From NCBI GenBank assembly GCA_006384855.1, contig VCJN01000716.1, forward strand, positions 37,802-101,801: a stretch of DNA of 64,000 bases, read 5' to 3'. The position numbers were made by a program, and so were the translations under genes. Positions 784-51,108 of the stretch are shown in pieces; position 1 is the first letter of the stretch; each line of letters opens with the position of its first letter. Below the pieces are notes generated by a model. It saw nothing but the letters and a program-made list of their open reading frames with translations, ran no database searches and had not been told where the DNA came from. The stretch is from Tetraselmis striata (Eukaryota; Chlorophyta; Chlorodendrophyceae; Chlorodendrales; Chlorodendraceae).

Positions 784-2513
784 CTGCAGCAGCTTGGGCA
801 GGATCTCCTTGCAGATCTTGCCGCTGATGGTGCCGTCGTCGATGAGGGCGATCATCTCCGCCAGCGTGCCTGGCCGCAGCTGCAGGCTGTCGAACGTCAC
901 CTTCTCGTTCTGCCCAGCAGCCGCAGATACAGGGGGGTGGGGTGGGGGGGGGCTTGCTTAGCAGCCCGCCTCGCTGAGCTTCGACACAACACACAGCAAC
1001 ACATCACAACCGCGCTTCGGCTTCGCTTTATAATACTGCAGTTTGACACTTCAATGGCACCCCTTTTTCTTTGCGAGAACAAAAGGCCAAGTTGCCCGGA
1101 CATCTACCCGCACACACCACAAAAACGGCAACATGTGGCGCGCCCACGGTAGTGCGGATTACGGTGCAGCGCTGCCGACAGTTCATCCGCGCGCCGCTGT
1201 CCCTTTCAATATGGGGGGAGGGTCGGGGCGCCGCACCTTGCAGTGCGCCATGACGTCGCCCATGATCCAGTTGGCGGCGGGCTTGGCCTTGGCGCCCGCC
1301 TGCGAGGAGGTCCGCCAAAACACACGCGCCGCCAACGATCAGCCCCAACAGGGCATTCAGAGTTGCGTTTCCCCCCTCAGCAGCTGTGGGCAGCCAGTTC
1401 AGGTCGTTCAGGTTCTTGGGGCACTTGGGGCGTTGAGCAATGCACCATAGGGCTTTGGGGAGTTAAGGCCTCGGGATTTAGAGGTTTCAGGGTTGAGAAC
1501 CTAAACCCCTTGCAATCGTAATGAAACCCTGGCGGGCTCGCTTCTTGCGCGTGCGGGAAGGGGGGGGGGGGGGGGGGGCTCAATAGAGTTGTTCCAAGCT
1601 AGGAATAGAAAAGTCCTTGTACAGCGCAGCGAACAGCTCGGAGCTCAGTTTTGCTCGGGGTTTGCGCGCGTGTGGTGACACAAGTACCTCGTTTATGCAA
1701 TGAAGTGGTGGCAAATAAACAGTATCAGCAGCGCCAGCGAGCAACGGACGGACCATATCTTGATGCGTAAAACAAAATTCATGCGGTGTTTCGTAGCCTG
1801 GAACAACAGATAAAGCACAACAATTTACGGATCACAATGTAAGGATATAAGAAGACAATAACCATGTGATGAACAACATAAGGACAAACACAAAAGGACC
1901 GCAATATAATGATTCGCGGTGGAGTCGTCATCGTAACGGGACTTCAAATGGGAATGGCCAGTACTTATTGCCTTACCGTATGATTGTGTCACATTGGCTT
2001 TAGCGGCGATGTATTCGGTAGGGAGTGCAAATCCCGGCAGTGTCGCCCTGTACCCGTACCCGTAACGCACTGCCAGATATGGTACGCATTGGTACCGCAT
2101 TGGGCAGCGGGTAGCGGGGTACCCGTGTCGGTACGTTATTCGGGCTGCTCGTGCATGGCGACATCACTACGAATCATTATTGTGGAAACCATATATAAAT
2201 ACACACAAATATATATAATATATATAAATATATTTATATTTCGATATATATATCGATATATATATATATCTACATATATTATAGCACATAGTATATATAT
2301 AATGCATAGCATATGATATATAGCATATATACTTGTCATTGTGAGACCAGGAAGGACGGTGGCGAGGGTGGGCTGATGCGCCGGGAGACAAAGGAGGCGC
2401 TCATCCGGGGTACGCTCACCTCCAGCACCTCGTCAAAGTAGGCGGCCACCACGTGATCGTCCGCCAGCTGGAGCGCGTCCGCCTTTGGGAGCCCTGAAGG
2501 TGAGAGGGCCCGC

Positions 2514-2545
<32 letters not shown>

Positions 2546-3470
2546 GGCGCTCGTCATTGCTTCTTCTGTCGCGTGAAGGCGGGTCATCTCACCGCATGTG
2601 GAAACGGGCCAGCCGGGACTGGAAAATGGGACGGGGGACCAGCGTTGCAAATGAAATTGAGCGAGAGAAACATATCTCGATGCACATTGAACACCGCTAC
2701 CATGATGGAATATGAAACAAGTTGGACTAAGGTCCGGACACGTGTAACGTCACTTAATGACAATGACAATGGTTTGTCTTCCTTTCTGGACACAATCAAC
2801 TACGCACGAGGTTCGGGCTCTCAGTGAATAGTAACGACTGCGATTTTATCATTGTTGTGGTTCTGGAAATGTATCAGAAAACACCGCAAATCCAGGCCAG
2901 AGTATCTGGGTCGAGACAATGGAGCAAACCTATATTCATTATTTAGTGTCCCACGGCCCCGATGAAATGACACGGTCCGCAGCGAGGGTGCTGCAGGCGA
3001 GTGGATGCCGAGTCAGGGAACCAAGAGCCGGTGGTGCGTGTTTGACATGGGCGCAGAGGCAGAGGGGGTCTGGGGAAGAGGGCCGGGAGGGGGGGGGGGG
3101 GGGGGGGGGGGGGCTCTTGCCGAGCGAGAGGAAGCGCGCCCTACGCGCCGCGGGCAGCTCTGGCAGCGCCGCCGTGACGCGCGCCAGCATCTCCTCCGTG
3201 ACAACCGCGGGCGGCAGGTCCGGCTCCGGGAAGTAGCGGTAGTCGGCGAGGCCCTCCTTCCTGGAGGTGGGCGGCGGCATGGAGAGCCCGTCAGGAGCAA
3301 GCTCCCCTGGACACATACATATATATGTACACATACATACACACATATATAACAGACATATACAATCTCCATGTACACACATGTGTATATGTGTGTATGT
3401 GTATGTGTCCACATACACAATATACAATGTACATTTACATACACACATAATAACACACACACATACATAC

Positions 3471-3517
<47 letters not shown>

Positions 3518-6116
3518 GTATTTATATTCATATGTATATGTGTATATAAAACACATACAGATATATGTATATATATATATATATCACATAGACATCTACA
3601 CATCTACGTACACAATATACAGTATACACAGACATATACCCCGGTAGATCAATACTCTTCACCAAAGCTTACAAAGAAGCAGAAAGAAGCGCAGTGCCAG
3701 CCACCAGCCAGCTGCGCGCGGGCGGGCGCTCACTTGCGCATGCTGTAGGTGCAGAGCTTCCCCTCATCCCACAGCCGCGTCTCCTGCACGATCTCGGCGC
3801 CGCACCCCGCGTCCAGCAGGCCGCTCTGCCGCTCGATCTCAAACTCGATCGCCTTCTGCATCGCGCTGAAGGAGTTCATGTTCTTCACCTCCACCTGGCG
3901 CCGCCCGGCCGCAGGCGATCAGCCGACGCGGCAACGCCACCAGAACGGGGGATGTGTTTCCGCGCGCCGTACCTTGGTGCCGAGGGCCGCCTGCCCCTTG
4001 GGGCGCACCGAGATGTTGACGTCGCAGCGCATGGAGCCCTCCTGCATGTTGCCGTTGCCGACGCCGATGGTGCGCATGATGCGCTGCAGCTCCGCCCCGT
4101 ACTCCGCCGCCTCCTCCCCGGTGCGCATGTCCGGCTCCGACACGATCTCCAGCAGCGGCACGCCCGCGCGGTTGTAGTCCACCAGCGAGTAGTCGCTGCC
4201 GGAGAGCGCCGCCGCGCCGCTGTGCACCTGCGGCCCCACATGCGGCGGTGAGCGGTGAGCCGGTGAATGACCAATCCCCTGTCAGCGGGAGCCGCATTAC
4301 TCCCGGCCACAAAAGGGCAGCTGATGCTGAGCCTTCCCACCCCGCCATACCCTCCTAGGCAGCTCGGAGCTGGTGTGCCAGATGGGGGGGGGGGGGGGGG
4401 GGGGGGGGGGTGTCCTCCTCCTCCTCCTCGCGCAGATATAGTTGCAAATCCTGACTGTTGCAGGATACCTCTAGCGTCGGCAGATGCCCCCCCCCCCCAC
4501 CCCGCCCCTTCGCCCCAAGGGAAGAGACACAATCGCAATGTCCACCCTGCATCCGGGCAATCCCATCACACGCCACACCAGGAGTTGCACTGCCGCATGC
4601 AACAGCACAGCTTGCTAACACCGGCCACATTGCGGAGTGAGATACAACAGGAATCACTCCTGAGCGGCTGAACACACTACATGGCGCGGCGCAAATAGAG
4701 CCTGTTGGCAATGATGCTGGCATGGCTTGAGAGGGTGGGGTGGGGGCGGGGGTGGGGGGGGGGGGGGGGGGGGGGGGGGGGAGGGGGGGCTGCCAGCGCG
4801 CGCACCAGCTTGCCAGCGTCCTCCTCAATGTGCGCGCGCGTGATCCCGATGGTCTTGGGCTCCTTCTGGCTCTGCAGCTGGATGACGAGCGAGCCTGCCA
4901 CCACCCCACCAGCAGCCCTCAGCATGCACCGTCTCCGTCGGTGCATATTGTTGGTGTGCATGTGGTCTGAGGGGGGGAGGGGGGGGCACCTCCGCTGCAG
5001 ATGGGCTCGTCGTACTGGCTGATCTGGTAGCCCTTGGGCAGGTCGGCGTAGAAATACTGCTTGCGGTCGAACTTGGAGCGCGGCGCGATCTTGCAGCCGA
5101 GCGACACGCCCGCCGCCACCGCCTTGGCGACCACCGCCTCGTTCAGCACCGGCAGGGTGCCCTGTGGGGGTCAAGCGCCCAACGAATGGGTGGGTGGGTG
5201 GGTGGGTAGCATGACGGAGCCATGGGCATCAACAGGCCAGCCAGCTAGATCCCATGCCAGCCCCTGCCTCTGGCTCATGGCCAGCTTCCTCACTAACACA
5301 CGAGCGCTGTGCGATGCTGGGAGCAAAGGTCGGATCTTAGCGCCCACTTGTGTGCGCGTCATGCCGCCGCCCGGGGGTCTGGGTGGGGGTGCGCACCGGG
5401 TGGCCGAGGCACACGGGGCACACGTGCGCGTTGGCCTCCGCGCCGTACTCGTTGGTGCAGCTGCAGAAGGCCTTGGTGGCGGTGGACAGCTGCACGTGCG
5501 TCTCGATGCCGATCACGGCCTCGTACGCCTGGGCGCGCACGGCGGAGGGGAGGTAGCTCAGGCATCGTGGGTGGGGGGATGACTGGTCGACTGGTGGCAT
5601 GCTGCCGAACGATCAGCATATTGTCCCATGCCGATTCTCACCTATCTACAAGGAACAACACTGCAACATCTACAGATGATACAGAATGAATCTCCGGAGA
5701 AATGATAAAGAGCCTATATATAGTAATGAACCAAGGACGGCCGAAAGGAACCCATATAGAAGAGAGGACACGCGACCCTCATCCAGCAGCATCCAGTGAC
5801 GGCGCGGGACCAGTCGGGTATGAGCCCACGCCTGCCCTTAGCGCGACCCCGCACGCCAGCACAGGCGGTTACCCACCTGCTTCGCCGGTGCCTCCGCCTT
5901 GGCGTCCGCGGCGGTGGCGGATAGCGCCACTCTCATGGACCGCCCCGCCACAGGCCGCCCCGCCGCCGACCCCTGCCGCCCGCTCTCGCCACCGCCGCGC
6001 CGCGCCGCATTGGGGGCACCGCCGCGCCCGGAGCACCGCGCGCGGGTCGCGGGCGCCAGCGGCCGGCTGCTATGTGCGCGCTGGCTGCAGGTGGCGGCCG
6101 GGGACGGCGCTGCCAT
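784..6116 (-). CDS. gatB: Organellar glutamyl-tRNA(Gln) amidotransferase subunit B (GatB), 3' end missing
   Basis: GatB, with GatA and GatC, amidates misacylated Glu-tRNA(Gln) in plastids and mitochondria. Ten exons were placed by motif and phase: 6116-5877, 5528-5397, 5161-4990, 4894-4806, 4227-3973, 3894-3734, 3260-3121, 2493-2420, 1299-1237, 909-784. They join without a frame break into 484 codons. Residues 1-80 are an Arg/Ala/Ser-rich transit peptide. The body shows family motifs in order: [93 protein letters not shown] and [18 protein letters not shown]. The start ATG at 6116 is the first one giving a targeting peptide in frame. About 70 residues of the C-terminal GatB/YqeY domain are not visible. 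Intron 7 has a GC donor. Identity is near certain; exon ends are hand-called. Confidence 0.95.
2199..2340. repeat. AT-rich microsatellite in gatB intron 8/9
   Basis: Interrupted (TA)n/(ATAT) sequence with short TCGATA and GCATA variants. It lies in the intron between gatB exons 8 and 9. Confidence 0.8.
3301..3640. repeat. (CA)n/(TA)n microsatellite in gatB intron 6
   Basis: Alternating purine-pyrimidine sequence, ACATACAT-type followed by pure (TA)n around 3479-3510, filling most of the intron between the exons ending at 3734 and starting at 3260. It may form unusual DNA structure, but nothing suggests a specific function. Confidence 0.85.
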
Positions 6117-7118
6117 CGCGTGGCAAGTGGGGGGGGGGGCCTGCGCACAGGCGGCGCCGTGTTGGTGCGCACAGCTCAGCGACAATACCGCACAGAGGCA
6201 TGGAGCCATCAGCACCTGCCCGCCAATATACCCGCAACATCCGGCGTGCCGCCACCTCGGCGCAGCGGGTCTGGAGAAATCGCACCTAGCACGAAAGTAT
6301 GACGGTGATCTCAGCAGGTTAAACCAGTGCCACTCAGCGTGCTGATATGTTTGAATAGATGGTGCCGATGTGGTGCGGGGAGGGGGGGGGGGGGGGGGGG
6401 GGGGAGGCGGTGGTGGCAAGCTCCTGTCGAGGTGCGCGTGGTGGTCGATATCGCTCGCTGTGCTGGGGTCGCTGCACGGATGATGAGACGATGTCGTGGC
6501 GGCGGCGCGGGCTGTCTGTATAAGCAAGGACAATCAGGATTAGTGAGTAGGGTTTGGTTACGAACAAGGGGTACAGTCGGGCGAAGGCAAGGGCAAGTCG
6601 TAGGGTACAATCATCTACGACGGCGCGGGGCGCGAGTGTCCGAATTTTGATGCTCCGATGCGCGCGTTTGCTGATATCAGGTAAATTGTAGTCATCATTT
6701 ATTTTCGGTGCGCATGTGAATAATCGCTATGGGTTATTCCCATCGATTCCCATTTCGGACGGGCGATTTGCCAGCGATTATTATTTGCTGACGCGGCGCT
6801 TCTGATGGCTACGAAGAAGTAGCGACTACCTGTACCTCGTCCTGATGCTGAGATACGCGCGATCGCGAGTGGGGACGATACGCGTAGTACCTGTAGTACC
6901 TGCAGTCTCGTCACCTGCCGGCCCCGCGCTTACGCGCTGCTGCGCTTGAAGTTCGTTGCGCTGCCTCGCGTCGCGCCTCCGCTGTTATTATTCCTTCGCA
7001 TCGCCACTTCACCCCAATACTTCACGGGCTGCTGTTCTCGACCAACCACGGCGGGCCTCGTGGTGAAAGCGTCCCCTTGGAGCCGACACCCTTGCCAGAC
7101 GCCTGCTCCCTGGTCGAC
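6117..7118. other. Divergent intergenic region between gatB and the AlgH-like gene
   Basis: About 1 kb separates the start codons of the two divergent genes, so it must hold both promoters and 5' UTRs. A poly(G) run at about 6380-6404 is the only obvious structure. I could not recognise a TATA box or any defined regulatory site. Confidence 0.6.
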
Positions 7119-10100: not shown

Positions 10101-11608
10101 ATGCAAGTCAGTGCGTACTCGCCTGCCGCTGACCCCAATGCGGCTGGTCCTGCGACCTATCCCCCGCCCCCCCCCCACTCCTTGTGGTATCCCCCCCCCC
10201 TTTCAAAACCACCAACCAAACCCCACCCCTCTCACCCCTCTCACCCCTCTCCCGGTGCGTGGCTGCGCAGGCGTTTGCCGGAAACCCCCTCTACCTGGGT
10301 GGTCCCGTGGAGCTGGGCGTGCTGGGCATCCTGCACGGCGTCCCCGGCGTGAGTGGGGCGGAGGAGGTCTCGCCGGTGCGCGCCCCCCCCCCCCCCCCCC
10401 CCCCCTCCCCGGGGCCCCTCCCCCGGGGGCTGGCTGCGTGTGCGGCGAAGGACGGGGTGGCTGGGGACGAATGCCCCGGACCCACCGCCCGGCGGGATGC
10501 GGAACCCGGCACCACTCAGCGGCGGGTGAACCACTGCCGCACCACGCCGCGGCGGTGCGGCAGCGCCCAGCATCCAGTGCTGTCTTGCGGGAGCTGCTGC
10601 AGGGGCGGATGCTCGCCCCTCTCCGCCCCCCCTTAAAAAAAAGCTCAGCGCCATCACGCGCCCGGATGGGCCGATGGCGCGGGGGTGGTAGGAGGGAGGG
10701 CATCGCTCTGCCGCAGTTGCGGCGCTGCACGCTCTCAGCTCGCGCCCCATCCTGCGCGATTCGCTGCGACGGCACAGCGTCATTATTTGTGGGCCGTCTT
10801 TTCAGCCAAAACACCCGCGCGGCTGTCGACAATGGGCTGGTGGTGACCCGGTGGGGGGGGGGGGGGGGGGGGGGGGGGGCAGGACAACGTAGGCAGCGGG
10901 ATGTGTGTCATCCGACAAAGGGGCGGTTAATCGCTCAGTTGTGGTGCTGACGGCGCTGCCGGTGCCCCCCTACCCCCCCCCCCCCCCCCCCCCCGGGGGT
11001 GCCCGTTTGCGCCAAGCAGGGTGTGTTTCACGGCGGCCTGCGGCACGCGGCGGAGATGGTGGGCGGCGGCAGCGCCGACCCCTCGGAGTTCCAGCTCATC
11101 TGCGGCTACAGCGGCTGGGCGCCCTTCCAGCTGAGCGGCGAGCTGCACTCCAAGTCCTGGTACCCGATCCCACCCTAAGCAGCCCTAGAACAACCACAAC
11201 GACCCGACCCGTCTCCTCCCACCCGTCATGGAGCAGGATTGTTAGGGTTTCCAGGGCGATAGGTCAAGACGGTTTGTATGCCCTAAACATGTGAAATAAG
11301 GGCATGGACCAAAGCCGTAAAACTTTCGTGAAACCCCAATACAACGCTCTTACGGAACCTTGAAGTCAGACCCTAAAACCCTAATTACATGAAACCCTAC
11401 TCCGCAAGCCCCAACTATTGCACACATGCCCATGATGCATCTCAGGTACGTCATCTCCGCCAGCCGGGACATCATCCTGGAGTGCGCGCGCGTGCGGGGG
11501 AAGCACGAGCTGGACGTGCGCAGCAACATCTGGGAGGACATCCTGCGGCTCGCCGGCATCGACCCGCACAGCGTCGGTGCGCCCGCCCCCCCCGGGGCCA
11601 AACCCCAC

Positions 11609-26600: not shown

Positions 26601-29600
26601 CCACAGCGGCCATCAGGTGACCGTTGGTGGGCGGTCCGGCGGGTAGCATGCGGTTGCTTGTCGTCATAACAGGTTATTTCAGCGAGGCACCTTGTTGGAG
26701 AGCGCCGCCATGATCTCAATCTCCGCCTTGAAGCTCATCATCTGCGCAGCGCTGCTTAGCTCGCCCTTCCCGGGCAGCAGCATCTTGACCGCCACGTCCA
26801 TCCCCCGCCACTCGGCCTGCGGCCGGCCATGCCAGCGCCAACATCAAGCGCAACCCTGGGAAGCGGGCTGCGCGATCCCTCGGGGCTCTACTCCCATCAC
26901 GCGCATGGTTGAGTCAATACACTGACGCGAACTTGCTAGACCAGAAAGAGGCTGGGATTCAGACGTGTCCGCACAGAAGAAACTGTGCCCCATCCTGAGA
27001 AGTAGGCACAGTTTCCCACATGAAAACAAAGCACATAACATAATAGAAAATATGATATATTGGATACATTATATACTGCACGTATATAGTATATTATAAT
27101 CTATATTATATATGCGGTTGCCGACCCGGCTATAAGAACCCAAATTTCGATATCAGAAATGGGGCGCTAGCAAATGTTCATAATTATCATAATGATATCA
27201 TGTTGTGTTCGTCTGGCATTGGACCAATAAGGACTTGTCGCGTTGTTGATTTTTTTCTTCTAGTTGGGTCGGCACCTGTACTGTTTTTACATATACAATA
27301 AGTATTGAACGCCTACGTGACCGACTGCGCCTCAGTTCACCCGTGTCATCTTGCATCGCCTCTGGATCGCTGAGGGATGGCGCTGCAATCGATGGGAATA
27401 TGGAGAGCGCTCCCTAGGCAGCCCGGCGCAGGATCATGCGTCAGGGGGGGGGGGGGGGGGTGGCTGCGCACCTGGTACACGGTGCCGAACGCCCCGGACC
27501 CCAGCTTGCCGCGCATCCGGCCCCGCAGCTCGCGGTGCCAGCTGACGTGGAGGTTGCACCCCTCTCCGGGCGCAAAGGCCGGCGGCGCGCGCTGCTTGAG
27601 CGAGGTGGCGGCGGCCTTGCTGCGGCGAGGAGGGCGCTGGCCGCCGCCGCCGATGGTGCCGAGAGAGGTTCGGCAGCGACAAGTTGGGCGGGCGCGCCGC
27701 CTGGCTGGCCAGGCGCCACAGCATCTCCAGCGCGAGCCGGAGGTGCGCCGCCAGCAAACACGCGGCAAACGGCCCAAAGGTCTCATCCTCGCCAGCGCCG
27801 CATCGCTGCTGCTGGCGGACGTGGGCGCGGTAGCTGTCGGCCAGCAGGGCGACGAGGCTGGGCAGGGCCCGGGGCGGCACCCGCCCAGGCGGCGGCGCGC
27901 ACGCAGCGACGTCGGGGCCCGCCGGCTTGCCGATACGCCAGCAGTCGAACGAGAGGCAGCGGGATGGGAATGCCCCCGGCGATGGCGAGGAGGCATGAAC
28001 GCTGCCACTGCCTGAGCAAGCGGGCGCGGCTGGTCAGCGAGGCAGATCACTGAGGGGCAGCGGCAGCTGATACGCCTCCTGAACGAACTAGCTGGTCTAA
28101 TAGGATGGAAATTGAGCAATTGGAAAATAGTAGAATAGAATAGAAAAGAGTAGAATATGTGGTTGATGGTTTGGATTATTATTATTTATTGCAAGAAAAC
28201 TTGCAGAAAACGTGCATTGTTTTGAAAGTACATAGCGAGACAGGACTGCAGACCGATGCACGCTCAAACGATGACGTGCATCATACCGACAGCGTTACGC
28301 GTTATGCGTAAGGAGCTTCATTAGCAGGGTCCAGGGTCCACACTTAGACGTCAGGGAATCCTTACATAGTATAGCTAAAAGCCTATTTAACGCGTACATA
28401 TACCGGTCAAGATAACTCGCGCGTTTTGTAAGGATATTGCAGACATGAAGGATATATTGCAGCAATATCATAGACATGTACGATTACGTAATCCTTACAA
28501 TCGCATCCACACAGCCGCGTCCACACACGACGGAACTTCAGCAATAATATCAAGATGAGAGTAAGGATTTATACCAGAATAGATATTCCTTAGATTAGTA
28601 CCAGAATATATACTTCCTCTGATTTATACCAGAATAGATAGAGTAGAAACGGTTAAAAACACTAGCAGGGTCGCAAAACACGGCTTGATATGGTCGTTTA
28701 AATTTTTGCCACCTACGCGCTAGTATATATGATAAATATGATGCCTGTAAACTTGCAGCGGTATTCTCGATACACTTTCGTGCAGTGAACCGAATAGCGG
28801 CATGGCTCCAAGCCGAGGAGGGCGGGCCCTTCATTCCAGCTGCCCGGGGATGGGGGGAGCCTCACGCGCGCGCACTCACCTTTCTCCATTGCGGACAGGC
28901 CTTTGGGCGCCTGGCCTGCCCATTCCAGCCGCGAAACAATTGCCAGGTCCGAGCTCTGTGACGATGCCTGTGAATGGGGGCAGAAGCGCCCGGGGGGGGG
29001 GGGGGGGGGGGGGCAAGGGTCCCATGATCCACAAGTACTCAGCGGCGATACACCCTACCCTTGCCGTCACCGACTGAGGCGGGCGCGGCAGCAATGACAA
29101 TCCCAGTAAGGCACTGCGATAACGTGCTGGCGGTGTATCATCGCCCCATCTATAGCTATAGATGCGATGCTTTCTCTAGCATCGTAAACGGGATGCGGCA
29201 TTCACAGCAGCCGATTCCGTCAATGATGGTCAGCAACGACATCCTGAATAGGAATGCCAAGCAGGGTCAGCCGTAGTGCCGATCATACGGTCTTCAATTT
29301 TTTTTGGGGGGGGAGGGGGGGGGGGGGGGGGGGTTCACCTGCGCCTGTGCCGCGGCGCGGCGGCGGCTGCTGAAGACGACAAAGCCGATGACGGCCGCCA
29401 CCGCAGCTGCCACGACGGCGGCTCCCACGCCAAGTGGCATAAACAAACCGCCTCCCGCCGCCTCCGCCTCAGCCCCCTCGCCCTCTCCTTCCTCCTCTGC
29501 CTCGGTCTCAGCAATGCTGACGAAGCTCCCATCTGCAACGGCGGTGCATCGGCGGCCGTCCTCAGTCACAGGAGCTGGTGACGCATTGAATTGGAGGGGC

Positions 29601-32600
29601 TCGGGGGGGGGGGGGGGGGGGCGCACGTTCATCCGGCAGCCCCTCCTCCCCAGACACCTGCAGCACCTCCAGCCCCGCAGCCGCCAGTCGCGGGAAGATG
29701 CTCCCCCGCAGCCGCGCCTGCCAGGTCTCCAGGTCGCGATACGCCGTGCCGGGCGGGAAGTGCGCCATCGCCTCGACGGTCAGCGCGCCGCCGCCGGCCA
29801 GCCCGCCACCCGCCTCGGAGACCCCCCACGCCACCACCGCCGCCTCCGGCAGCGCAGTCAGCTCGGCCACGTCCTGCAGGAACAGCTCCACGGCACGCCT
29901 CGTGCGCGTCGGCAGCGCCGCCACCTCCGCCTCGCCCAGCTGCCTTAGTCTGCGGCGGTCCGCCACGGGCGAGATGATCGTTGCCACGACGTGCAGCCAT
30001 GCGCCGTTGGCAGGGTACCCGCAGCGCACCACCGGGTAGTCCGCCGACAGCCAGGGCGGCGCGCCCACCCTCAGGGCCGGCAACAGCGGGGGCGGCACGC
30101 AGGGCAGCGCCTGCGACTCGTCCATCGCCAGGGACGTCACCGCCACGAGGGCGCCGCCCCATTCCTGCGCGTCCGCAAGATCGTCGGCAGTATTGTCAAT
30201 GCGCGCATCGCGGTCCCCTGCAACCTCGCCGTACACAGCGACATCTATTCGCGTGCCGTGATCATGTGTTTGCACATATGTTTGGTTTTGCTCGCGTCTC
30301 CTGCCCTACCTGCACCGGTTTCAAGTAGTCCTAAAACCCTAAATATTCTAAGACCCTAAAATTATAGCCCCCAAAATCCTGAAATGGTTGTAGGATAGGG
30401 TTGCTTTCTCCCTCCCGCTCCATCTTTTCAAACCGCTAGTTTGAATAGCATAATGGATAGCATCATGGCGTACCGTAGTCGGAGTGTAAGTCCTACTGTG
30501 ATATTGTTCTTACCCCCCCCCCCCCCCCCCCCGTGCTGAGATGAGAGAAATAACGCTACTCTTAAACATTTGACAGTTTTTCATCAGCACACACACACAC
30601 ACACACTTTCAAGCTGCGCAGGTATCCCAACCTGGTGTTGCAACAAAATTGAGTGTTTTTACCCGCACACCCGTCTAATGGCATCGCAGACCCGCGCATG
30701 CATGCATGCATTCATGCATGCATGCATGTATGCAAGTATATATGAAGTAACTTGACAGTTGAATCAGCGATGCGTCGATTTTTCAGAAAATTTTAAAGGA
30801 ACGGGTTCTATATCACTGGCCTACAGTTCCATGAATTGCATTGCCGGCGCTTTGAAGTAGCAACTATGAACTCGCGTGTGGCTTGCATAGAAGTCATCAG
30901 GCGCAGCGTTTCGAGCGGCGGCTCACCGGATTATAGTACTTGGTAGTACATGTCGGTAGATAAGCGCTTATGACGACTAGCGAGTACCATTTTTTTGCCA
31001 TTACCAGCAGCGAGTAGCGAGTACCAGTACCAGTACCTCCCAACCGTGAGATCGTAATCGGACGGCTGTGTAATTAAGAACCGTGGGCGGGCGGGCGGGC
31101 GGGCGGGTGGGTGGATTATAGTACTTAGTAGTACATGTCAGTAGATAAGCGCTTTAGTCATGCACCTATAGGCCCGATCCGCAGTATACGGGTACCCGTA
31201 CAGCAATAAAGCTCACCGCGGAAAAATCGACGCTTCGCTGGATAAACATGCATACATACATACATACATGTGTGCGTGACTGTGTGCATGACCCGTGCGT
31301 GACCCGCAGGGCGCGGCAGGTATACGCCGATGAACCCGCTTGGCTTGACGTATAAGACAACGCGTCTGTACCGTGCAACATTCAGGGACTGAATTCAAAG
31401 TCCGATACTATAGCATTAGCGGAATTGAGTGCCAACACCCTTTACTGCCCGATAAGCTCGCACTGTGTACCGCCTTGAGGCGCCCCATGCCGCATTACGC
31501 AGAAGTCGGCTGGCACAGAAAAATGCAGCGGTATTGGAGTGATGAGGAGGGGGGGGGGGGGGGGGGGGGGGGCATGTCACGCACCTGGGGGATGCCGCCT
31601 TGGAGGTCGTTGTCCGCCAGGTCGAGCACCGCGAGCCGGCTGAGCGCGGACCACTGCGCGGGGAGGGTGCCTGTGAGGTTGTTATCCCCCACATGCATCT
31701 CGTTGAGGCCCGCTAGGGCGCTCCACTCGGGCGGCAGCGGGCCGGTGAGCCAGTTCCCGTGGACGTAGAGACCCTCGAGGGCGGTCAGAACGCTGCGCCA
31801 AATGCACAAATCCCAATAAATGCCAGATGTTCATGTCGGTAAAGCAAGCTCTCCGCACGTCTGATGACAGGTTATGCATTTTAGTGCTGAGCGATGAAAA
31901 GTGCTTATTGGATTAGTGCAATTTGGGTGGGTGGGGGGGGGGGGGGGGGACACGATATACCGTACTCGGCGTGCAGATGGATGTACCTTCACGGTAAGGA
32001 AGTTCCATGCATTATAAATACCCCCTCCCTCTATTTCCAAGCATGGTGTCTCATTTTCCGTTAATGCATATGGTTGTCATTATATCGAATATGCTGCTGA
32101 AAAAAGTAGGCATCCTACTGTGCGTGCCGGTAGTTACAATTTCGGATATTATTGGAACGGTGTATCGCTGGCTGCCCGGCGAGCAATAACTGCTATGCTC
32201 ACCTGTACTGCGCTGGCAGCAGCCCCGAGAAGTGCGCGTCCTGCAGCCAGAGGCTGCCCAGCTGGGAGAGAGCGGACAGCTGCGGCGGCAGCGAGCCTGC
32301 GAGCTCCGAATCCCCCAGGCTCAGGACCTTGAGGTCCGTCAGCGCGCTGCACCGAACAACACAACGGCAGCATCACGCCGGAAGGCGCCCGGGGGGGGGG
32401 AAGGGGGGGGTCAGCTCATTCAGTAACAGTCGTTATTCCCACGACCGTCTTGCGTTTTGACAAGGGGGCGATCAGAGGCAGCTCGAAATGGCAGTGGGGC
32501 AGTTTGGTGCGCCAAGAGACAGAGACAGAGAGAGAGAGAGAGAGTGTGTGTGGAGGGGGGGGGGGAGGGGGGGGGGGGGGGGGGGGGGCGGGAGCGTGGG

Positions 32601-35600
32601 GGGAGGGGGTATGATGGCGGCAGCACACCTGAGTTGCGGCGGGACCGACGCGTTGAAGTAGTTGTACGAAAGTTCGAGATCCGTCAGCTGTGTGAGTGCC
32701 GACAGCTGCGGCGGAATGCCGCCGCTCAGGTCGTTACTGCTGAGGTCGAGCCACTGCAGGGCCCCCAGAGTACTGCAGGGGCGCGCGAGCCGGGGCTTAT
32801 TAGGGACTATTATTATTGGCAGGCACCACTGACCGACGGCACAGAGTGCCGTGGCCAAGGCGTCGCGAGCGCTGGCTTGCCGTCTTGGTGAAATGGGCGC
32901 ACCTGTATTCCTCTGGTAGGGTACCGCTAAGGCGGTTGTCATGTACGTGAAACACCAGCTGGGGAACACATCAAGGCAGGGGCCACAGCCGCAGGCAACA
33001 AGTCAGCCCGAGATAACAATCACGCAATCACGCTTATTAGGGTTTGAGATATCCTAAACCTCAAATTCTAAACCCTACCCCCGGTAAAGTACCAGCAGTA
33101 GAGAGAGAAAAGCACATTTATCCTGAAATATTTCAGAATACACCCTGAATATCACAGGGATCTTCCGCCTCGTTGCTGCAACACAATTCATTGTCTTTCA
33201 GGAACCCGGCGAACCGAATCAAATGTTACTGTAGTGTTCGAGTGTGGTAATTAGCAAGGAAGCAATGAGTCGACGAGACACATATCATGCCTTGGTAAAC
33301 ATCAGAGGAGACGGAGGAAGTAAGGGGGCTGTCATTTTCCAGGACACGGTTTCCTCGCTTGCATTTCCGGAATGATTTCCGAGATGTTTTATTGGGATTT
33401 GTCAACGTCCTGCCCGCCGCCCAGACAAAATAATCTAAAGGTACATACAGTACACCGTTTATTCCTGGAAAGAGCGCTACCCCGGCCCCGCGGTTTGTAG
33501 CACATACTACCAACGGGTAATCCTTATTTAAAAGCACAACTTCTTTCAGGCCGGAAATCAGACGACCGGGGCACGTGAAGGGCAATATTTCAAATCCGGG
33601 CGGATGTGGGCCAGCTGCCGGATTATTTCTGAAAGAGTCGCAAATTTCGAATAATACCGTCTTGGTCGGCGCAACTCGGGTGAACCGCCTCAGCGAGCCA
33701 GCATAATTCTGAAAACGTGATACCGGCCTTTCAAATAGGGGTTTCGTCGTCGGTCGCGTCCATTTTGCTGCCATGGTGGGAGATGTTTCCAGAAAGTATA
33801 CCACCGCTTAGCCTAATGTATTGATGGGAGGTGTGGTAATGTAGCGTGTCACTAATAAGCTGTGCATCACAAAGTTGTAAAGGGACCAGTACGTATGGTG
33901 TATCGCTGACTGGCGACTGACTGTCTCACTGACTGACTGACTGACTGACTGACTGACTGACAGACCACCGGTATGTATAGCAGCGGGAAAACCCCTTTTC
34001 CGAGTGAGTATCTGGGGGGAGGGGGGGCTACCAGTCGTGCCAGCGCGCTCCACTGCGGCGGCAGGCTCCCAACCAGCCGGTTCTCCGCCAAGCCCAGGTA
34101 CGCCAGCCCCTGCAGGGAGCTATGTATTCCAGACGCCATTCACATGAAAGTCAATGCGGGGCGGTAGTGACGTTGTAATGATCCGCGCCGAAAACAAGCT
34201 CTGCCCCGTCCGTGGTCAGCCTTACGTCATCACGGCCGACTTGGCATGATATGTGGGGAGGCCAGAGGGAGTAGGGGAGGGGCACGCTGCCAGAGTAGCT
34301 AGAAGGACTGCATTTCTTGGTGCATATATGCAGAAGTATGTGAAAAAACTATTATGATGGTACTGCACAATGTAGTCGCCATGAAGATGAATGAACATAA
34401 ATGCATTTAGCTACCGCGTAGTGATATGGCACGTAGATGTGCGCGTGTGTGTGTGTACAATATACCATTTAATGGGTTTGAGACTAAAAGAGAAATTAAT
34501 GATGAGATTAAAATGATGAAATAATGATTCGATATTAAATTTGGCACCGGACAACGACTGCCGACCCCCAGTATCGCGTGGATTCGCAATGTAGGTTCCC
34601 CTTTGCGGTGGGGGGGGGGGGGGGGATAAAATATCAGTACATGGTGAAACGCAACAAAGCGAGGGACGGTACGGTGGATACTCTCTTGCATGTAACAGCA
34701 CACCCACGCATATGCATTGCTTAGAAAATGGTTGTGACTGTTGCGGTCGCATCAGTAAGGCGCTTGCTGGTGTCTCAGCCGGAATGAGGTTAGGATGGGG
34801 GAACTTGCAGGCAGGAAGGCATCCGATGCCGCTCCGGGACTCGCGCAGATGATGGCACGTTACTTGGCGGGCACCTGAATGCGGCCGGGAGAGTGCCGGA
34901 GAGCGCGTTGCCGCCCAGATCCAGCGTCTCAAGGCTGCGCAGCGTGCTGACCCATGCGGGCACGGGGCCCACAATCAGGTTGGCGTACATGGAGAGCTCC
35001 AACAGATTGGTGAAGGAGCTGTGCCGTGGTGGTGGGTGGGTGTGGGTGTTGGGGGGGGGGGGAGGGGGGGGGGGGCTGCGTCAGCTCTGGCCAGGGAGTA
35101 CATCGGTAAGGTTCTATCGCGGATCACAGAAATACTGAATCGTTTTACGCAATCAAGTCGGAGCTTCCATGCCATATTCGTGACTTATTCTGATGTGTTT
35201 CCAAAAAACCTATTTTTCCTCTCTTTCAAGGGGGGGGAGGGGGGGTCCAAAACAGCAACATATAGCGAACCCAGCGCGCAGTTATGGTGATTGCAGAGTG
35301 CATGCAATACTTTGTGTTATGGTCTGCAGATGACGGGTTTCCGTCCGATCGGCGCAACAGTGCAGAACTGTGCGATGCGGCTCCCGATGGGGTATGCGCA
35401 AAGTCTGATGCATCTCGGCTCTCTGCCATACGTGGGCTTGCTCGCAAGAGACATTTCCTTCGGGAACCCTCCCCCAGAAAATGATGATGATGATGCGACC
35501 CAGAGTCGGTGGCCCTTCGGCCTGTCTCAGCCCGGAGGGGAACGCGATGGGGGAGCCAGGGGCCGTGAGGCGAACCTATAGGGCTCGGGGATGGCGCCGT

Positions 35601-36232
35601 CCAGGTGGTTGAAGTCAACCAGGAAGTGCATCATGCTGGTCAGCCCGGAGTACGCGACCGGCAGGGCGCCGGTGATCCCGTTGTCGGTCAACGCCAGCAT
35701 GCGCAGTCCGAGCCATCGACTGTTGTGCGCGTGGATATTGCAGTCACATGGGTGTCAGGGGAGATTCCTGTCAGTATTATCCAGGGGGAAGGGGAGGGAG
35801 GGGGTGGGGGACTCGGCACCATTTTTAACACGGAGCTCATGGCACCATTGTGTGGGCGCAATGCATGCGTAGCTGTGTTGGACCATAGAATCAGAGATTC
35901 CTGTCAGTATTATCCATGGTGAAAGAGTGGACCTATTCTTTATTCAGTGAAGCGAATCAGTGCTGGCCTCCTTTCGTCCTTTTTTTGTGCGAGCCCCCAC
36001 CCCCCCTTTGTCCAAGTCCCTACCCCATCCCCGGCCTGTTGATTCCTAGCATTGCGCTGCCTCGCCACACGGTGCAAGGCGCCACACCTGTACCCAATCG
36101 GTAGCGGCCCTTCCAGCTTGTTCACCTCCAGGTTCAGCTCCTCCTGGGGGCAGCCAGGGGGCGCCATGGTATGTGGGTCATGGATGAATGGATGGCCGGC
36201 TGTGCTAACCTGCCGCACGCCCGCCAGAGGGT

Positions 36233-36265
<33 letters not shown>

Positions 36266-40677: not shown

Positions 40678-40758
40678 CGTAAGGTGACACACGACCTCAC
40701 AAACGACGTTCGACGCCAGCCGCTCGCGGCGACTGCAATAACGACAGCATGCCGTACT

Positions 40759-41775: not shown

Positions 41776-41811
41776 CAGTGTGCCCCGCCGTTCCGAGTCA
41801 TGCTACCCAAG

Positions 41812-43540: not shown

Positions 43541-43558
43541 TCCCTGCTACCCGACCTC

Positions 43559-44262
43559 GTGCAGAAGCTCCAGCAGAGTGGCGCAGCGGCGACCGTCGTC
43601 GCCCCGCGATGGGAGGGCAAGGTGTGGCACCAGGCACTCACCGATATGGCAATGGAGGAGCTCACCGTGACGCCACGCACCGGCGGTTTGTTCCGGCCGG
43701 GACGGCGGGACGGGCGAGGTATGATCGGCAGGCCTCACTGGCCCGTGACTGTATTCCGCGTTCCCTTCCGGCATGGGTCTACCTGCGCCGAGGGGCCGTA
43801 AGTGCTACGCTATCCATGTTTCCGGGCAACGGCCACCAACTACCGGCTGTACGTGCGGCACCATTACGATCTGCAACGGTGAAGTACCGCGTCGAGGTCG
43901 CGAGCTGTACGACACCATGGGCTGATTCGATGCCCCCGTGCATGACACGGGTTCTAGAATATGACACCCTTGGCGTCCAAACCCTTGAGCTCCTATCAGC
44001 TGCGTGGGCGCCGGCCACAGCGGCGTCTCACGCCACTTGCATGAAGCAATATTTCCGTTTCTGCGAAGAGGAGCGGCGACCGGCCATGGCTGCCGACCCC
44101 GGGACTATGGCACGGTACGTCACGTGGTTGGGCAACCTAGGGACGATCGAAGCCTCCAGCTTGCAGCCTTACCTCTCGGCCGTCAACAACTTCTTCAACG
44201 ACCGCGGCCGGGAGCCGACGGCTTTGGGCGATCTGGTGAGCAAAGTCCGCAAGACTTTCTAG
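43559..44262 (+). pseudogene. Tyrosine recombinase of DIRS-like element, N-terminal half only
   Basis: A linker (VVAPRWEGKVWHQALTDMA) leads into a SAM-like core-binding domain in another frame: LLSAAWAPATAASHATCMKQ, YFRFCEEERRPAMAADPGTM, RYVTWLGNLG, SLQPYLSAVNNFFNDRG. The frame ends after SKVRKTF at 44262. The catalytic domain (R, H-x-x-R, Y) is not found downstream, so the gene is truncated. Confidence 0.8.
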
Positions 44263-44886: not shown

Positions 44887-47800
44887 ATGCCGGTGCGGAC
44901 GCGGGGTCGGGGCGCCGCCTCCCCAGCGTGGAAGTTGCTTAAGCTGGCCCTCATCGGCTGGTTTCTAACCGCGGAGGTCGGTTGTTGCGACCTAGGTGAG
45001 CACGGCCACCTAAGTGCTGGTCATTCGGAGAAGGGACTGCGTGTGCCGTGTACCTGTAACGTTATGCCCCGCGGGGAATATCTTAAAATTTGCGCCACGG
45101 AGATATTTGACCGCCCCTCCCCGAACGGCGTCGTCTCCCCACCGCAGATCGCGCCACGCTTCTGCAGTACCAGCACGCAGGCACGCTGGCCTGGGACACT
45201 GCCGGCTCCACGGCGGCGTGGGAGGACGCAGGCGTGCGCTGCGAGGAAGGGCGAGCGTACAGGATGTGCGCACAACCGCCCCTATTCCCGGATTCCGCCC
45301 CACCGAAAAGACTCGCTCTCCCCGCCGCCGCGCGCTTGAGTATCAGTCATGCCTCGGACTTAAACTCGCTCCCCCCTTGGCACTCGGACGATCTCGCCGC
45401 CATTTACACCCCCCGCCCCCCGCCCCTCCCGTATTAATCCTACTGCTGCTTTCTTGCCCCCCGCAGCACGCTGCCGGAGGGGATGTCTCTGCCTGGCCCG
45501 CTGCCGGCCGTTTTCAGCAAGCTCACGGCGCTGTGAGTGCCCACCTCATCACATAGATACGCCAATGATACGCCTCCATCATACCAGCACCAACACAGCG
45601 CACTTTTGTTTTCGCATTACACTTTGAACGGAGATGCTTACCTGCTAGCTAGATGATTGACAATCGATGCCACCCGGTCATCCTGCGTGATGGCGCGCAT
45701 CACTGCCACCGCAGGAACCGCTTTGCTGCGAGCGACAACGGCATCACTGGCAGGTGCGGTGCCGCCCAGTGGGCCGCCGCGAGGGCTGTCTGACCATCCC
45801 TGGGCTCCGTTACCCCTGCGGCCGCTGCTGATGGCGCTGTTGACCCGAAATGCTGTCATCGTCCCGCTGAGATGCCGACCCGCTGCTGTGGCCCTCACGC
45901 GCAGCCTGCCGCCGGAGTGGAGCGCATGCGTGGAGCTGGTGCGCCCCCTCCTAATTCCCAACGGGCCCCAACAACAGCGCACCCACACCAGCCAGCCCGT
46001 CCGCCTGCCTGCCTGCCTGATCGCCGCCATGCTCGCCCTGATCCGCTCCGCGCTGGCCGCCCACAGAGGGAGCTGAACCTGGACGGCAATCGGCTCAGCG
46101 GGACGCTGCCGGAGGATTACAGGTACTGAAACCGTGTCAGTACAGGGTGGGGCATCGTGTCTTGGGCCGTTTGACCACCCAACACATCACGGCGATAGCT
46201 GATACGGGCGCCTGCGTGGGCCCACGTTCCTTGTCCCCATCCATGTTGGGCGACCGTGCATGTTGGGCGACCGTGCATGTTGGCGCATGCATGTTGAGGT
46301 ATGTTGGGCCACGGTGCAAGAGATGTGCCTGGTCGCTGACCCCCCTGCCCTCGCTGCGTGCCGCCGGAGCAGCGCACTGTCCGCGCTGGAGGAGCTGCAC
46401 CTCGAGGGCAACACCCTCACGGGGCCGCTGCCGCTTGGATGGAGCGGACTGGAGAGGCTCGAGGAGCTGAGCCTCGGCGGCAACGCGCTGCGCGGGCCGC
46501 TGCCAGCGGCGTGGAGCGAGCTGAGGGAGCTGGAGGAGCTGAAGCTAGCGGGGAATGGGCTCAGCGGGACGCTCCCGGCGCAGTGGTCGGCAATGCGCCT
46601 CCTTGAATCGCTCGACCTGGGCGGCAACAACCTCACGGGCGGCATCCCCGAGGTGAGAGCTCCGCCCCACCCGTCAGCTGGGGCTGGACGCTGTCACTAT
46701 ACCCAATAGTGTGATGAGTCATGTTGCAACGCCCAATGTCATGGCAGTGTCTCTGACATGCGACGTCAGATGTGCGACATTCGGGCTGTGGTTTTGGCGT
46801 GCCATGTTTTGGCACTGTGATGTCACTGTGCTGACATGTAGCGTGATGTCGTGTCATGGTATGGTATGCTGATATCACGCCCATGCCATGCGATTTGTCA
46901 TGATAGGCTGCCATGTGGCCGTGGTGTGGCGTCATGTCATGTCTTTGCATTGTGATAGAAGGCTCACTGTTGCACGGTGGTGTCATTGCATGGCTGCGCG
47001 CTCTATGCTCATGACGGGGGTGGCCCTGTCGCAGGAATGGGGCGTCGCCCTCACAGTGCTGGAGTCCCTGACCTTGGGCGAGGCGCAGGAGCTCTCGTGC
47101 ATCCCGCCGTCCCTGCTGCGCGCGCTCACCAGCGGCACGTATCCATGGCTGATTCAAGACCGCATCGTCGTGTGCGGCATGCCGCAGCTCAAGCCGCCGG
47201 GCATCCACACCAGCCCCTGGCTGCAGCTTGTCGTCACCGTCATCGCCCCGCACGCCGGGAGCGCGAGCGCCGCTGCCGGGACGACTGGGCGCCGCAGCCT
47301 GCAGCAGCTGGACAGGGCGGATTTGATGGCGCTGTCGCCAGCAACGCGCGAGGCGGTGGAGCTGCTCCGTGAGGACGTGGTAGAGCTGACGGGGCTGCCG
47401 AGGGTGGCGGTGGCGGCGTGGAGCGTCCAGGAGGCGGGCGGTGGGCTGGAGGCGGGGGGCGCGCTGACCATGGAGTTGCTGCTGCGCTTCCCGCCCGGCG
47501 CCACGTACGACGAACTGGAGGGCTGGGAGAACCGGCTGGCGACGAGCAAGGACGAGTTCACGCGGCTGCTTAGCAGCGGCCTGCAGGTGGTGCACATCTC
47601 CGCGGAGGAAAGCCTGCAGCCGGCAGACGACGACTTGACGGGCGACGACTTCGATGACGCGGGGTGGCCCCCGCGCAGCGAGGCCGAGTCCGGCTCGGTC
47701 GCGCTCATCATCGGGGCGACTGTGGGCGCCGTCGTCGTGGCGCTTACGGCCGTGGCTGGCCTTTCGTTCTACGTGTGCCGCCACGCCTCCCATCAGCAGG

Positions 47801-50800
47801 TCGCCCCCCCCCCCCCCCCCCCCCCCGGCCGCGCCCCTTTCTCCGCCCGCATGTGCGTTGGTTCCCATTCAGCATGTGAATCAACCCAACAGCAGAGAGG
47901 TCCCTGAGTGACCAAGACCTCGTCCGATTCGCTGTAGCGGGTGCTAATGGCAGGAATACAAACATGTACTTCCATGTTCACCTGCCGACGCGGTGATAGC
48001 AGCACTGTGAATAGGGACCCGCCCTACCTGCCAGATGCCAGATGTAGATGAAACTACAGCGGGGCTGCACGGAATGTTCTTGTGGGTGGCATGCAGCCCC
48101 AATCTGAGGCTTGTGGTTGTAAGGCCTCTTACCGGTGCGCCGGCACCCGTACATCTAGAAGACTCGACTGTTATCCACAACCCCCCGTCACGCCGCCAAC
48201 CACTGATCCAGCAGGGCGGCACGGTTGCCCCGGCTCTGGACGGCTGCCCTGGCTATGCGCCGACCACCATGGGAACAGTGTCCGCCTGCGTGGCTGGCGC
48301 GGCGTCCCCTGCAAGCCGCTGCCTGCCCACTGAAGTCGGCCTAACGCAATGACAGCGTGCCTCCCAGCAGGTGCCGTCGCTCGACTCGAGGTCGTCGTTC
48401 GGACGAGATGCGTCCAGCCTGGACGCCATGGCGCACATGAAGGGCTCCGTGGGGACTAGCGACGCCGAGTCGCCGGCCACGCTCCAAGAGGGGAGCGCGG
48501 TGCGCGACGGCCTCCCCTTCAAGCAGCGGCTGCCCGCGTCTATGGCGGGGGAGGGCGAGCCGACGCCCGGCAAGTTCTTCGACCTGAGCGTCGACTGGTA
48601 CAGCGACCTGGAGGGGCAGCTGGGCGCCAAGCTCGGCACGGGGGCGTTCGGAACGGTCTATAAGGTGAGCCTGGGCCGCCGGCAGAGCACACACGTGTAT
48701 GTATGTATGTATGTATGTATGTATGTATGTATGTATGTCTGTCTGTCTGTCTGTCTGTGACAAAGACTTGGCAGCTCTTCACGTGAGAGCCTGGTTTGCG
48801 CCGGATGATGCCATGCTGCCTCGTGCCGAACGCCGCCTCCTGAGCTCATGCGGCTGCTCGGTCTCCCCGCCGCCGCAGGCGCGCTGGCGCGGGCAGGACG
48901 TGGCGGTTAAGGTGTTTGCCGGGGGTGTGAACATGGACAGCGACGCGCAGATGGCCAGCTTCCGGGACGAGGTCAAGATCATGGCGGAGCTCTCCAACAA
49001 GGTCCGCACCTGCGCTGCCCAGATGTCCCGCACACATCGCTCGCCCGCCACGCCCGCGCACTCCCCTGTCCCTGCCGTGGCAACAACGCTCTACCTGACG
49101 TGTGGATGGCGCTGTGGCGGCAAATCCCCCCCCTGGCCCCCACCACTCCTCACTGCAGGGATGCGACCGCATCGTGCGGATGCACGGCGCCTGCCTGTCG
49201 CCGCCGAAGGTGTGCATCATCTACGAGTACATGCCCGGCGGCTCGCTGCACAACCGCATCCACAACAGCAGCCAGCCGCTGACGCACCTGGACGTGATGC
49301 GAATCGGGCTCGACATAGCCGAGGGGCTGGTGCGGCCCCCGGCCCGCTGCTCCCACCGCATCAATCGCATGCTGCCCAATGACAGCCTGTATGTGTGCAT
49401 ATGTGTATGTGTATGCAGCCGTGTGTATATATGTGTGGATGTGGGTGTAGATGTATATTTGTAGCATGTGTGTCTGTATGAAGATGTTAATGTGTACGGA
49501 TGCCGACGCACCTATGAGAACATCCGACGCACCTCAACTTGGGCCGTGCATGCATCCTACAAGAAGATTCGCTATAGTTCCGCTCTGGTTTCGTCCAGTT
49601 GACGTCTGGCAGGCATCGCCGGCTCTTGTTTGCAGTGCTTTTAGGACTGCGTCAGCGCCCGTGTATTATAGGTGCATGTGCTTGTTTATTTTAGCGGGCG
49701 AATCATGTGACCTCTGCTGCTCAATATATTTCCTGTTGAACTCCTGAACGCAGTTAAACGGCACAGTATACATGCGCCATATCTCGTTAATTAATCGGCC
49801 CTCCTTCCTTTGCCCACTCACACCGCCGGGCCATCCGTCCCGGGCAGGCCTTCCTGCACGCAACCACGGTGCACCGCGACCTCAAGCCCCAAAATATCCT
49901 GCTGGGCGCGGACGGCCGCGCCAAGATCTGCGACCTGGGCCTCGGGCGCGCCAAGGACCCGATGAAGAGCTACCTCATCACCGAGGCCGGCGGCACCGCC
50001 TCGTACATGGTGCGCCCCCCCCCCCCCCCCCCCCTGGGTGCGCCGTTGGCCTCGTCTTGCAGCCATTAACATGTGTGTTTGCCTGGGTGGTATCGCGGCG
50101 ACGCAGGCGCCGGAGGTGTTTTCGCACTGCAAGCTGCATGACAAAGTGGACATGTAATCCCCCCCCCCCCCCCCCCCCTCTCTCCCACAGGCCCCCAAGC
50201 AAGCATCCTTGACACCCCTGCGCTGAGTGACTATCCGATCGTCTGCTGGGGGCCATGCGCTCGTACCCGCACTAGCGGGTCGGGTTTGCGGGTCCGAAAA
50301 CGAATGATCTGTTGTACAGCAACGAGCCGGGAGATCCGTGGTGTATTCTGAAATAATGCACTTATGTATTTCCTCTTGGGGGGGAAAGAGGGGGGGAGGG
50401 GGGGGTCAACGACGAGGACACCCCGCGAACCCTACCGTGGATATAGGGCTGACTGGGGTGTCGGTTTGTTGCCTGCAGGTACGCGCTCGGGGTCATTTTG
50501 AACGAGATGCTGTCCCGCAAGCCGCCGTGGAGCAACGACTCGTGGCACGCAGCAGCTTTCCAGGTGAACGCTGCGCTGGGCCCGCATGCCCATCCCCATC
50601 CCCCCCCCCCCCCCCCCCCCTGCGGGTGGCTCTTGGCGCGCTAGAGCTCCGAAACCACCACCACTCCGGGGTCCTCGGAACTACCTAATGTCGCCTCTGT
50701 GCTCCGAAACCATCCGCCCCTCACCCCGTCCCCTCGTACCTCTGCCCGGGGCCCATCACAGTGCTTTGACAGCAGCCGGTACACATAAACGGATGTTCCG

Positions 50801-51108
50801 TACCAGTACTTACTCGACTTCGACCCCCCCCCCCCCCCCCCCCCCCCCCCCCACCCCCACCCAATCTCTCCTTTGTGAACCAGATTATGTATGCCGTCAC
50901 GGTGCACAAGGAGCGGCCCGAGATCCCCAAGTCGTGCCCCCCCGCCCTGGCGACACTGATCCGCCGCTGCTGGGCGACCGACTCAAAGGAGCGGCCGTCC
51001 GCGGCCGAGGCGGCGGAGCAGCTGGGCGACCTGCTGGCGGCGGCGGAGACGGGGCAAGCGGCGCAGGCGGCGACGGGCATGCTCGGGGCCGCGGTCCTCA
51101 CGGCGTAG
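44887..51108 (+). CDS. LRR receptor-like protein kinase (RLK-B), complete
   Basis: Fifteen exons join in frame into 857 residues: 44887-44995, 45148-45265, 45467-45532, 45715-45753, 45905-45938, 46067-46122, 46373-46652, 47035-47799, 48371-48664, 48879-49001, 49159-49329, 49848-50009, 50107-50153, 50479-50563, 50884-51108. Order: signal peptide ([16 protein letters not shown]), LRRNT-like cap ([16 protein letters not shown]), a short LRR block ending [11 protein letters not shown] (about residue 234), an unnamed ectodomain (235-450), a membrane span (about 455-480), an acidic/Ser juxtamembrane part and a TKL-type kinase. The kinase has [32 protein letters not shown] for DFG, an APE start to the P+1 region, DMYALG and RCW...RPSA. 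Exon sizes 118, 66, 39, 56, 171, 162 and 47 equal those of RLK-A. The ligand and pathway are unknown. Confidence 0.94.
48697..48758. repeat. (GTAT)n/(GTCT)n microsatellite
   Basis: Tandem tetranucleotides in the RLK-B intron that follows the P-loop exon. Confidence 0.9.

Follow-up and report, generated by a model that had tools for sequence, protein, structure and literature searches.

The DNA considered here is a stretch of 64,000 nucleotides (nt) from Tetraselmis striata (contig VCJN01000716.1, positions 37,802 to 101,801; G000:C561:37802-101801 in our numbering), referred to as the window. The assembly comprises 224 Mb in 2903 contigs. Five genes in the window carry long runs of C, on the sense strand, closely behind their 5' splice sites (donors). 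These are gatB and a gene of unknown family, on the minus strand, an AlgH-like gene, on the plus strand, and two paralogous-looking LRR receptor kinase genes, RLK-A (25113-36294) and RLK-B (46373-50009), which lie on opposite strands and have intron positions in common. We confirm that C runs of 10 to 34 nt behind donors are real and occur there more often than expected by chance. A first-pass annotation had named 16 donors followed by such runs in the five genes, and all 16 are present; 15 begin with GT and one, at 3121, begins with GC. For 14 of these donors, the intron has a pure run of 14-31 C that begins after 3-24 nt. The remaining two, at 4990 and 34032, carry runs broken by a T.

In gatB, C19 (752..770, minus strand) starts 13 nt behind donor 784, the exon of which (784-909) was predicted blind. 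Behind donor 4806, a run of 28 C that follows C7-T (4754..4781) starts after 24 nt, and an interrupted C8-T-C7 tract (4971..4986) lies directly behind donor 4990. The run at the GC donor, C25 (3089..3113), starts 7 nt behind position 3121; here the donor was read by eye and not by the gene finder. The intron appears to be of the GC-AG type, and the frame across its junction (LSLG/LPK), also read by eye, needs the GC donor. The AlgH-like gene has C23 (10383..10405, plus strand) 7 nt behind donor 10375. In the gene of unknown family, C28 (17428..17455, minus strand) starts 3 nt behind a proposed donor, 17459, that the gene finder missed. RLK-A, on the minus strand, has the most examples: C14 (26393..26406) and C17 (27444..27460), each 11 nt behind a donor (26418, of a kinase exon, and 27472, where the exon ends GTVYQ); two C19 runs (29315..29333 and 29603..29621), each 5 nt behind a donor (29339 and 29627); C24 (31549..31572), 12 nt behind LRR-exon donor 31585; an interrupted C7-T-C6 tract (34014..34027) behind donor 34032; and C31 (36233..36263), 10 nt behind donor 36274. 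In RLK-B, on the plus strand, C23 (47804..47826) starts 4 nt behind donor 47799, and two C20 runs start 5 nt behind donor 50009 (50015..50034; exon end GGTASYM) and proposed donor 50153 (50159..50178). The latter was also missed by the gene finder.

Not all runs in these genes follow donors. Four that precede acceptors, as had been described, stop 20-31 nt before the AG: C24 (2514..2537, minus strand) ends 20 nt before gatB acceptor 2493, C22 (8009..8030) and C22 (10973..10994), both on the plus strand, end 28 and 25 nt before AlgH-like acceptors 8059 and 11020, and C29 (50824..50852, plus strand) ends 31 nt before RLK-B acceptor 50884. Three exceptions to the sense orientation were likewise found as reported. 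G27 (10853..10879) places G on the sense strand of the AlgH-like gene, with its C on the minus strand, while C20 (30513..30532) and C18 (36517..36534), both on the plus strand, are on the antisense strand of RLK-A.

Donors in this work were placed by homology and by prediction. The gene finder, trained on 14,244 nt of coding sequence from kinesins, permitted GC donors, with a penalty. It recovered 27 of 28 homology-placed kinesin introns; since the same introns were used in training, this is a measure of fit, not an independent test. With C and G runs of at least 7 masked, and confined to the five gene regions and strands named by the first-pass annotation, it placed exon ends precisely at 13 of the 16 donors and none at 3121, 50153 or 17459. 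A blind run over the whole window, in which exons above 15 bits were considered and weaker ones not printed, ended exons at nine: 784, 4806, 4990, 10375, 26418, 29627, 31585, 47799 and 50009. Donors 17459 and 50153 rest on the gene model of the first-pass annotation. The spliced gatB product matches GatB_N in Pfam (E 8e-119). In its alignment with solved GatB, neither the 4990 nor the 4806 junction has a gap, and four residues past the latter an insertion of 7 residues begins. The AlgH-like product matches DUF179, and the RLK-A product matches LRR and kinase families. For RLK-B, six exons join in one stop-free frame in which LRRs, a membrane stretch and a kinase domain can be made out by eye. 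The predicted product of the gene with donor 17459 had no Pfam match.

The window holds 46 C or G runs of at least 12 nt (18 C, 28 G) and no A or T run of that length. A sample from outside the window (bases 1001-11000 of every 140th contig; 20 stretches, 199 kb) holds 67 C or G runs and two A or T runs. A listed donor lies less than 25 nt before the start of 14 of the 46 runs in the window.

To place the runs relative to donors we used 110 predicted introns, with a score of at least 10 bits for both flanking exons and a length below 3000 nt (35,342 nt in total). Kinesin genes supplied 53, the window 20 and the sampled stretches 37, so that 90 are from outside the window. Near-duplicate loci (L035, L045, L046, L048 and L054) were removed before counting; some predicted introns overlap on opposite strands, as seen for locus L014, and were kept. 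Sense C runs of at least 10 nt start within 25 nt of the donor in 14 of 28 cases, where uniform placement of each run in its own intron predicts 2.2. None of 20,000 permutations reached 14 (binomial p 4e-9). For sense G runs, the equivalent count is 2 of 13. The three sources agree (kinesin 8/17, window 3/7, sampled stretches 3/4), and the pooled clustering is stable at exon-score cut-offs of 5, 10, 15, 20 and 30, with 0 of 1 C runs near a donor in the sampled stretches alone at cut-off 30. Expressed as density, there are 5.09 C runs per kb within 25 nt of the donor and 0.28-0.73 per kb in the other distance bins. Shorter tracts behave similarly. Runs of C6-C9 within 25 nt of the donor number 12, against one for G, and a C run of at least 6 starts within 30 nt of the donor in 22 of the 110 introns, against three for G. 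Tracts of ten pyrimidines start less than 25 nt from the donor in 23 introns and tracts of ten purines in four; the pyrimidine fraction is 0.62-0.64 at +7 to +18 and 0.54 at +61.

The strand preference is confined to the same zone. Away from donors, the same introns contain 14 C runs and 11 G runs on the sense strand. Hence, the first-pass claim that the strand of the runs is set by gene direction applies behind donors but not throughout introns. The runs noted before acceptors exist, as described above, yet they form no special pattern, with 5 of 28 C runs and 3 of 13 G runs lying within 50 nt of an acceptor.

Introns without long runs share the bias in weaker form. Among 67 introns at least 80 nt long and free of C or G runs of 8 or more, C makes up 45% of positions +7 to +16 and 28% of mid-intron positions. 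G is level (28 versus 29%), T is reduced (14.5 versus 24%) and A is also low behind the donor. The C excess declines gradually to about +60. Introns pinned by homology agree: 14 of 24 have no run, with 44% C at +7 to +16 and 36% at +7 to +31. Over the latter interval, C is 29% behind exonic AGGTG sites (n=41) and 21% behind GTG sites located in introns beyond the first 60 nt (n=54). Since run-less introns are C-rich, and C6-C9 runs are in excess at donors, the long runs appear to be extreme cases, lengthened by slippage, of a donor zone that is generally rich in C and poor in U.

A genome-wide count supports both the clustering and the strand bias. Plus-strand matches were counted, once per motif, and site numbers were estimated from the 199 kb sample. 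Runs of 12 C starting 0-6 nt after a motif number 808 for GTGAG, 271 for GTAAG, and 320 and 344 for the non-donor permutations GAGTG and TGAAG, which served as controls. The corresponding rates per 1000 sites are 4.0, 2.3, 1.5 and 1.5. Thus, the rate after donor-like GTGAG is approximately 2.7 times that after GAGTG, a conservative control because GTG lies inside it. For runs of 12 G the counts are 692 after GTGAG and 682 after GAGTG, so that there is no donor effect; the odds ratio for C versus G is 2.5 (2x2 table, p 1.6e-27). Per start position, C runs after GTGAG fall from about 115 at 0-6 nt to 40 at 60-66 nt. Only part of the GTGAG sites are donors, and we infer that the effect at true donors must be larger. 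Three further counts add little. Around 111 runs in 263 kb, CAGGTG occurs 9 times within 40 nt upstream, twice far upstream and 3 times downstream, a modest signal because most runs are not beside donors. GTGAG followed by C12 after 22-28 nt was found 1176 times, compared with 616 after 60-66 nt; this has the same direction but is not used as evidence, because a repeated element recurs among the matches listed. Nor do we use the count of AGGTGVG within 24 nt before G12 (1051 + 924).

Run length is unstable. Kinesin loci that occur as near-identical pairs, either alleles or recent copies with 0.8-6% mismatch, were compared in five cases, namely L053/L054 (contigs C861/C845), L044/L045 (C1502/C725), L047/L048 (C1583/C1332), L031/L046 (C2472/C134) and L035/L036 (C394/C65). 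At these loci the assembly may have retained both haplotypes, or recent duplications. Four of the five pairs contain runs of at least 10, nine in all; every one is kept in both copies and every one differs in length. At least four of the nine are behind donors: 28 versus 31, 20 versus 22, and two of L035/L036, given as 10 versus 11 and 11 versus 12 (10 versus 12 and 11 versus 12 in a scripted comparison). Elsewhere in introns, differences include 36 versus 22 in L047/L048. The runs therefore resemble microsatellites in their length instability between copies, but not in independence of strand and splice site, which is absent.

Whole runs appear and disappear between paralogues. Introns of RLK-A and RLK-B were matched by eye from the residues at exon ends. 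Among five matched pairs, one has runs in both genes (RLK-A 29339 and RLK-B 47799), three have a run in one gene only and one has none. At the GGTxxYM intron, for instance, there is a run at RLK-B 50009 and none at RLK-A 25113; the run-less partner reads GTGCGCACCTGCCCC, whereas the other reads GTGCGC and then Cs. The run-less partners at the DIAEGL and GGTxxYM junctions remain C-rich. Together with the length differences, this turnover indicates that individual runs arise and vanish readily, whereas the C-rich zone tends to persist.

Some other features were seen along the way. In the window, 41486-44262 contains long open frames resembling, by eye, reverse transcriptase/RNase H and a tyrosine recombinase, which would suggest a DIRS-like element. 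In Pfam, the first frame had no match and the second gave only a sub-threshold match to Phage_int_SAM_1 (E 0.0034). At 53885-53909 there are two copies of the 12-nt unit TCTAGGGTTTCA, which contains the plant-telomere-like word TAGGGTTT. Outside the window, the sole match to the Rubisco small subunit found in the genome (L055; contig C1745, 67761-68102) carries the complete domain within a single open frame, with a tail of about 50 residues rich in proline, glycine and tyrosine at its end. We know of no such tail in other Rubisco small subunits. The gene is nuclear and most similar to the small subunits of green algae, as expected of a chlorophyte.

Three explanations for the runs had been offered at the outset: a splicing or poly(C)-binding-protein signal, G structures on the template strand, and transcription-linked expansion. 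The signal fits best, because the effect is specific to donors, specific to C and present in weaker form in run-less introns. The further claim on polypyrimidine tracts before acceptors is not supported, as a pattern of its own, by the counts given above. Expansion linked to transcription along the gene fails to fit, because runs away from donors are unbiased, and the same numbers rule out a strand asymmetry of whole genes. We give about an even chance to the reading that the runs are a C-only variant of the donor-proximal pyrimidine tract, overexpanded by slippage. Intron starts carry a C-rich, U- and A-poor zone from about +5 to +60, strongest to +25, and on this reading the zone would fill the role of the pyrimidine tract found just behind the 5' splice site in many eukaryotes. 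The genome is GC-rich, and C would be its pyrimidine of use. A protein like TIA1, Nam8 or UBP1, or a KH poly(C)-binding protein, could bind the zone in pre-mRNA and help U1 snRNP to hold the donor. Seeds of C in the zone would be hypermutable, and replication slippage would expand them to between 10 and about 34 C. Selection would purge such expansion in exons, while behind donors it would be tolerated or useful. Seeds of G near donors would not be expanded likewise.

Several results weigh against this. Only 13 of the 110 introns have a C run of at least 10 within 25 nt of the donor, and the donors themselves were placed by homology and prediction. Since runs come and go between paralogues, no particular run can be needed. 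The correlation between C content and donor strength has the expected sign but is not significant, in a comparison of low power (rho -0.12, p 0.21, n=110), and comparing downstream C for donors with and without G at +5 gave p 0.54 (n=110). An enhancer that compensates for weak donors would predict an inverse relation.

A different view, which we regard as rather unlikely, is that a local mutational bias without function is responsible. Here, a process tied to transcription or splicing, such as exposure of one strand or repair coupled to pausing, would make or preserve C on the sense strand, and slippage would add to it. Unstable run lengths, turnover between paralogues and the lack of significant compensation at weak donors all suit this. 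However, the bias does not extend beyond the first tens of nucleotides, and with 14 C to 11 G elsewhere a gene-wide transcriptional asymmetry fails, so that a mutational process locked to donors is needed. We know of no precedent for one, and made no search aimed at finding it. It is more doubtful still that the runs act as DNA, with G structures on the template strand past the donor slowing RNA polymerase and giving U1 time to bind. Strand and position would fit, and 14-31 G on the template are long enough for a quadruplex. Yet run-less introns, which are most introns (a run lies within 25 nt of the donor in 13 of 110), show an equal C excess and have no long template G tracts. A passive filter, in which harmful sense G runs near donors are purged and C runs simply left, is less probable again, although it could add to another cause. 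It would account for the small number of G runs near donors (two). The C excess already contradicts it, with C runs about 12 times denser near donors than elsewhere in introns (5.09 per kb versus 14 in 32.6 kb), and G runs near donors are not depleted (0.73 per kb versus 0.37 per kb overall).

An origin of the runs as the ends of introners (mobile introns), or of other repeats, inserted at AG/GT seems to us very improbable. A repeat with GTGAG and a C run does recur among the matches listed, seven pairs of introns are similar by blastn, and 20 of the 110 introns have a match elsewhere in the sample. On inspection, one of the seven pairs is the same DNA predicted twice, once per strand, another matches over 34 nt at the intron start and five are internal; many of the 20 introns belong to loci that had a near-duplicate among the sequences searched. 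No intron family matching end to end was found in this small sample (about 300 kb). The repeat begins GTGAGTGGATGCCCCGCCGCCAC, followed by C runs, and was seen, among the matches listed, at C4:2749, C5:77893, C35:13863, C37:42617, C49:57596 and C51:372 (contigs and positions in G000). This family may carry a C tract of its own. An artefact of assembly or base calling is barely credible. No part of an assembly is less reliable than its homopolymer lengths, but a genome-wide link to donor and strand cannot arise from base calling, and the runs recur in both copies of gene pairs.

If the C-rich zone is instead a functional variant of the donor-proximal pyrimidine tract, that tract would be a flexible slot in which the base can switch from U to C, here placed on very unstable sequence. 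The zone would allow a direct test of whether a specific base is needed or any pyrimidine will do, with gene copies and paralogues as a natural series of tract lengths for measuring splicing. A bolder version, which we hold to be unlikely, is that this lineage replaced a U-rich donor signal with one made of C alone, which a poly(C)-binding factor at U1 recognises, and that allelic tract length tunes splicing, making donor use rapidly evolving and contingency-like. A practical point is that gene prediction and primer design in genomes of this kind should allow for poly(C) immediately after exons.

None of the papers listed in our literature searches described an alga with poly(C) tracts following its donors. 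In Daphnia introns (PMC3152781), as in this alga, a pyrimidine homopolymer is biased to the sense strand; there it is poly-T over poly-A, with no link to donors in the available part of the text. Simple repeats in Chlamydomonas and Volvox (PMC3887541) also gather towards intron ends, but do so at both ends, in a U shape, and are mainly GT/AC, whereas those described here are strand-specific C mononucleotides at the donor end. In mammals, alphaCP proteins act on C-rich tracts, most of them at acceptors, to promote splicing (PMC4797308); among exons with a C-rich flank, the flank is upstream, at the acceptor, in 644 of 686 and downstream alone in 42. The alga is similar in having a C-rich intronic motif beside the exon, as at mammalian cassette exons bound by alphaCP/PCBP, but differs in that the excess is at the donor and not at the acceptor (C 5/28, G 3/13). 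The closest comparison in position is with the tracts of TIA1/TIAR, Nam8 and UBP1/RBP45. Of 22 eukaryotes, nearly all have pyrimidine tracts within approximately 20 nt downstream of donors in 20-40% of their introns, and these tracts are tied to TIA proteins, which recruit U1 (PMC2766253). The third RNA-binding domain of TIA-1 (RRM3) favours C-rich RNA (PMC4284772). The algal tract resembles those of the TIA type in being made of pyrimidines on the sense strand, in lying within about 20 nt downstream of the 5' splice site and in occurring in a considerable fraction of introns. Tracts of the TIA type are inversely related to donor strength in most metazoans, while the alga gives the non-significant correlation reported above, at low power. 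Unlike the TIA type, the algal tract is not U-rich but uses C, with T depleted, and its pure homopolymers behind donors reach 31-34 nt, compared with a published mean of 10-14 nt (PMC2766253).

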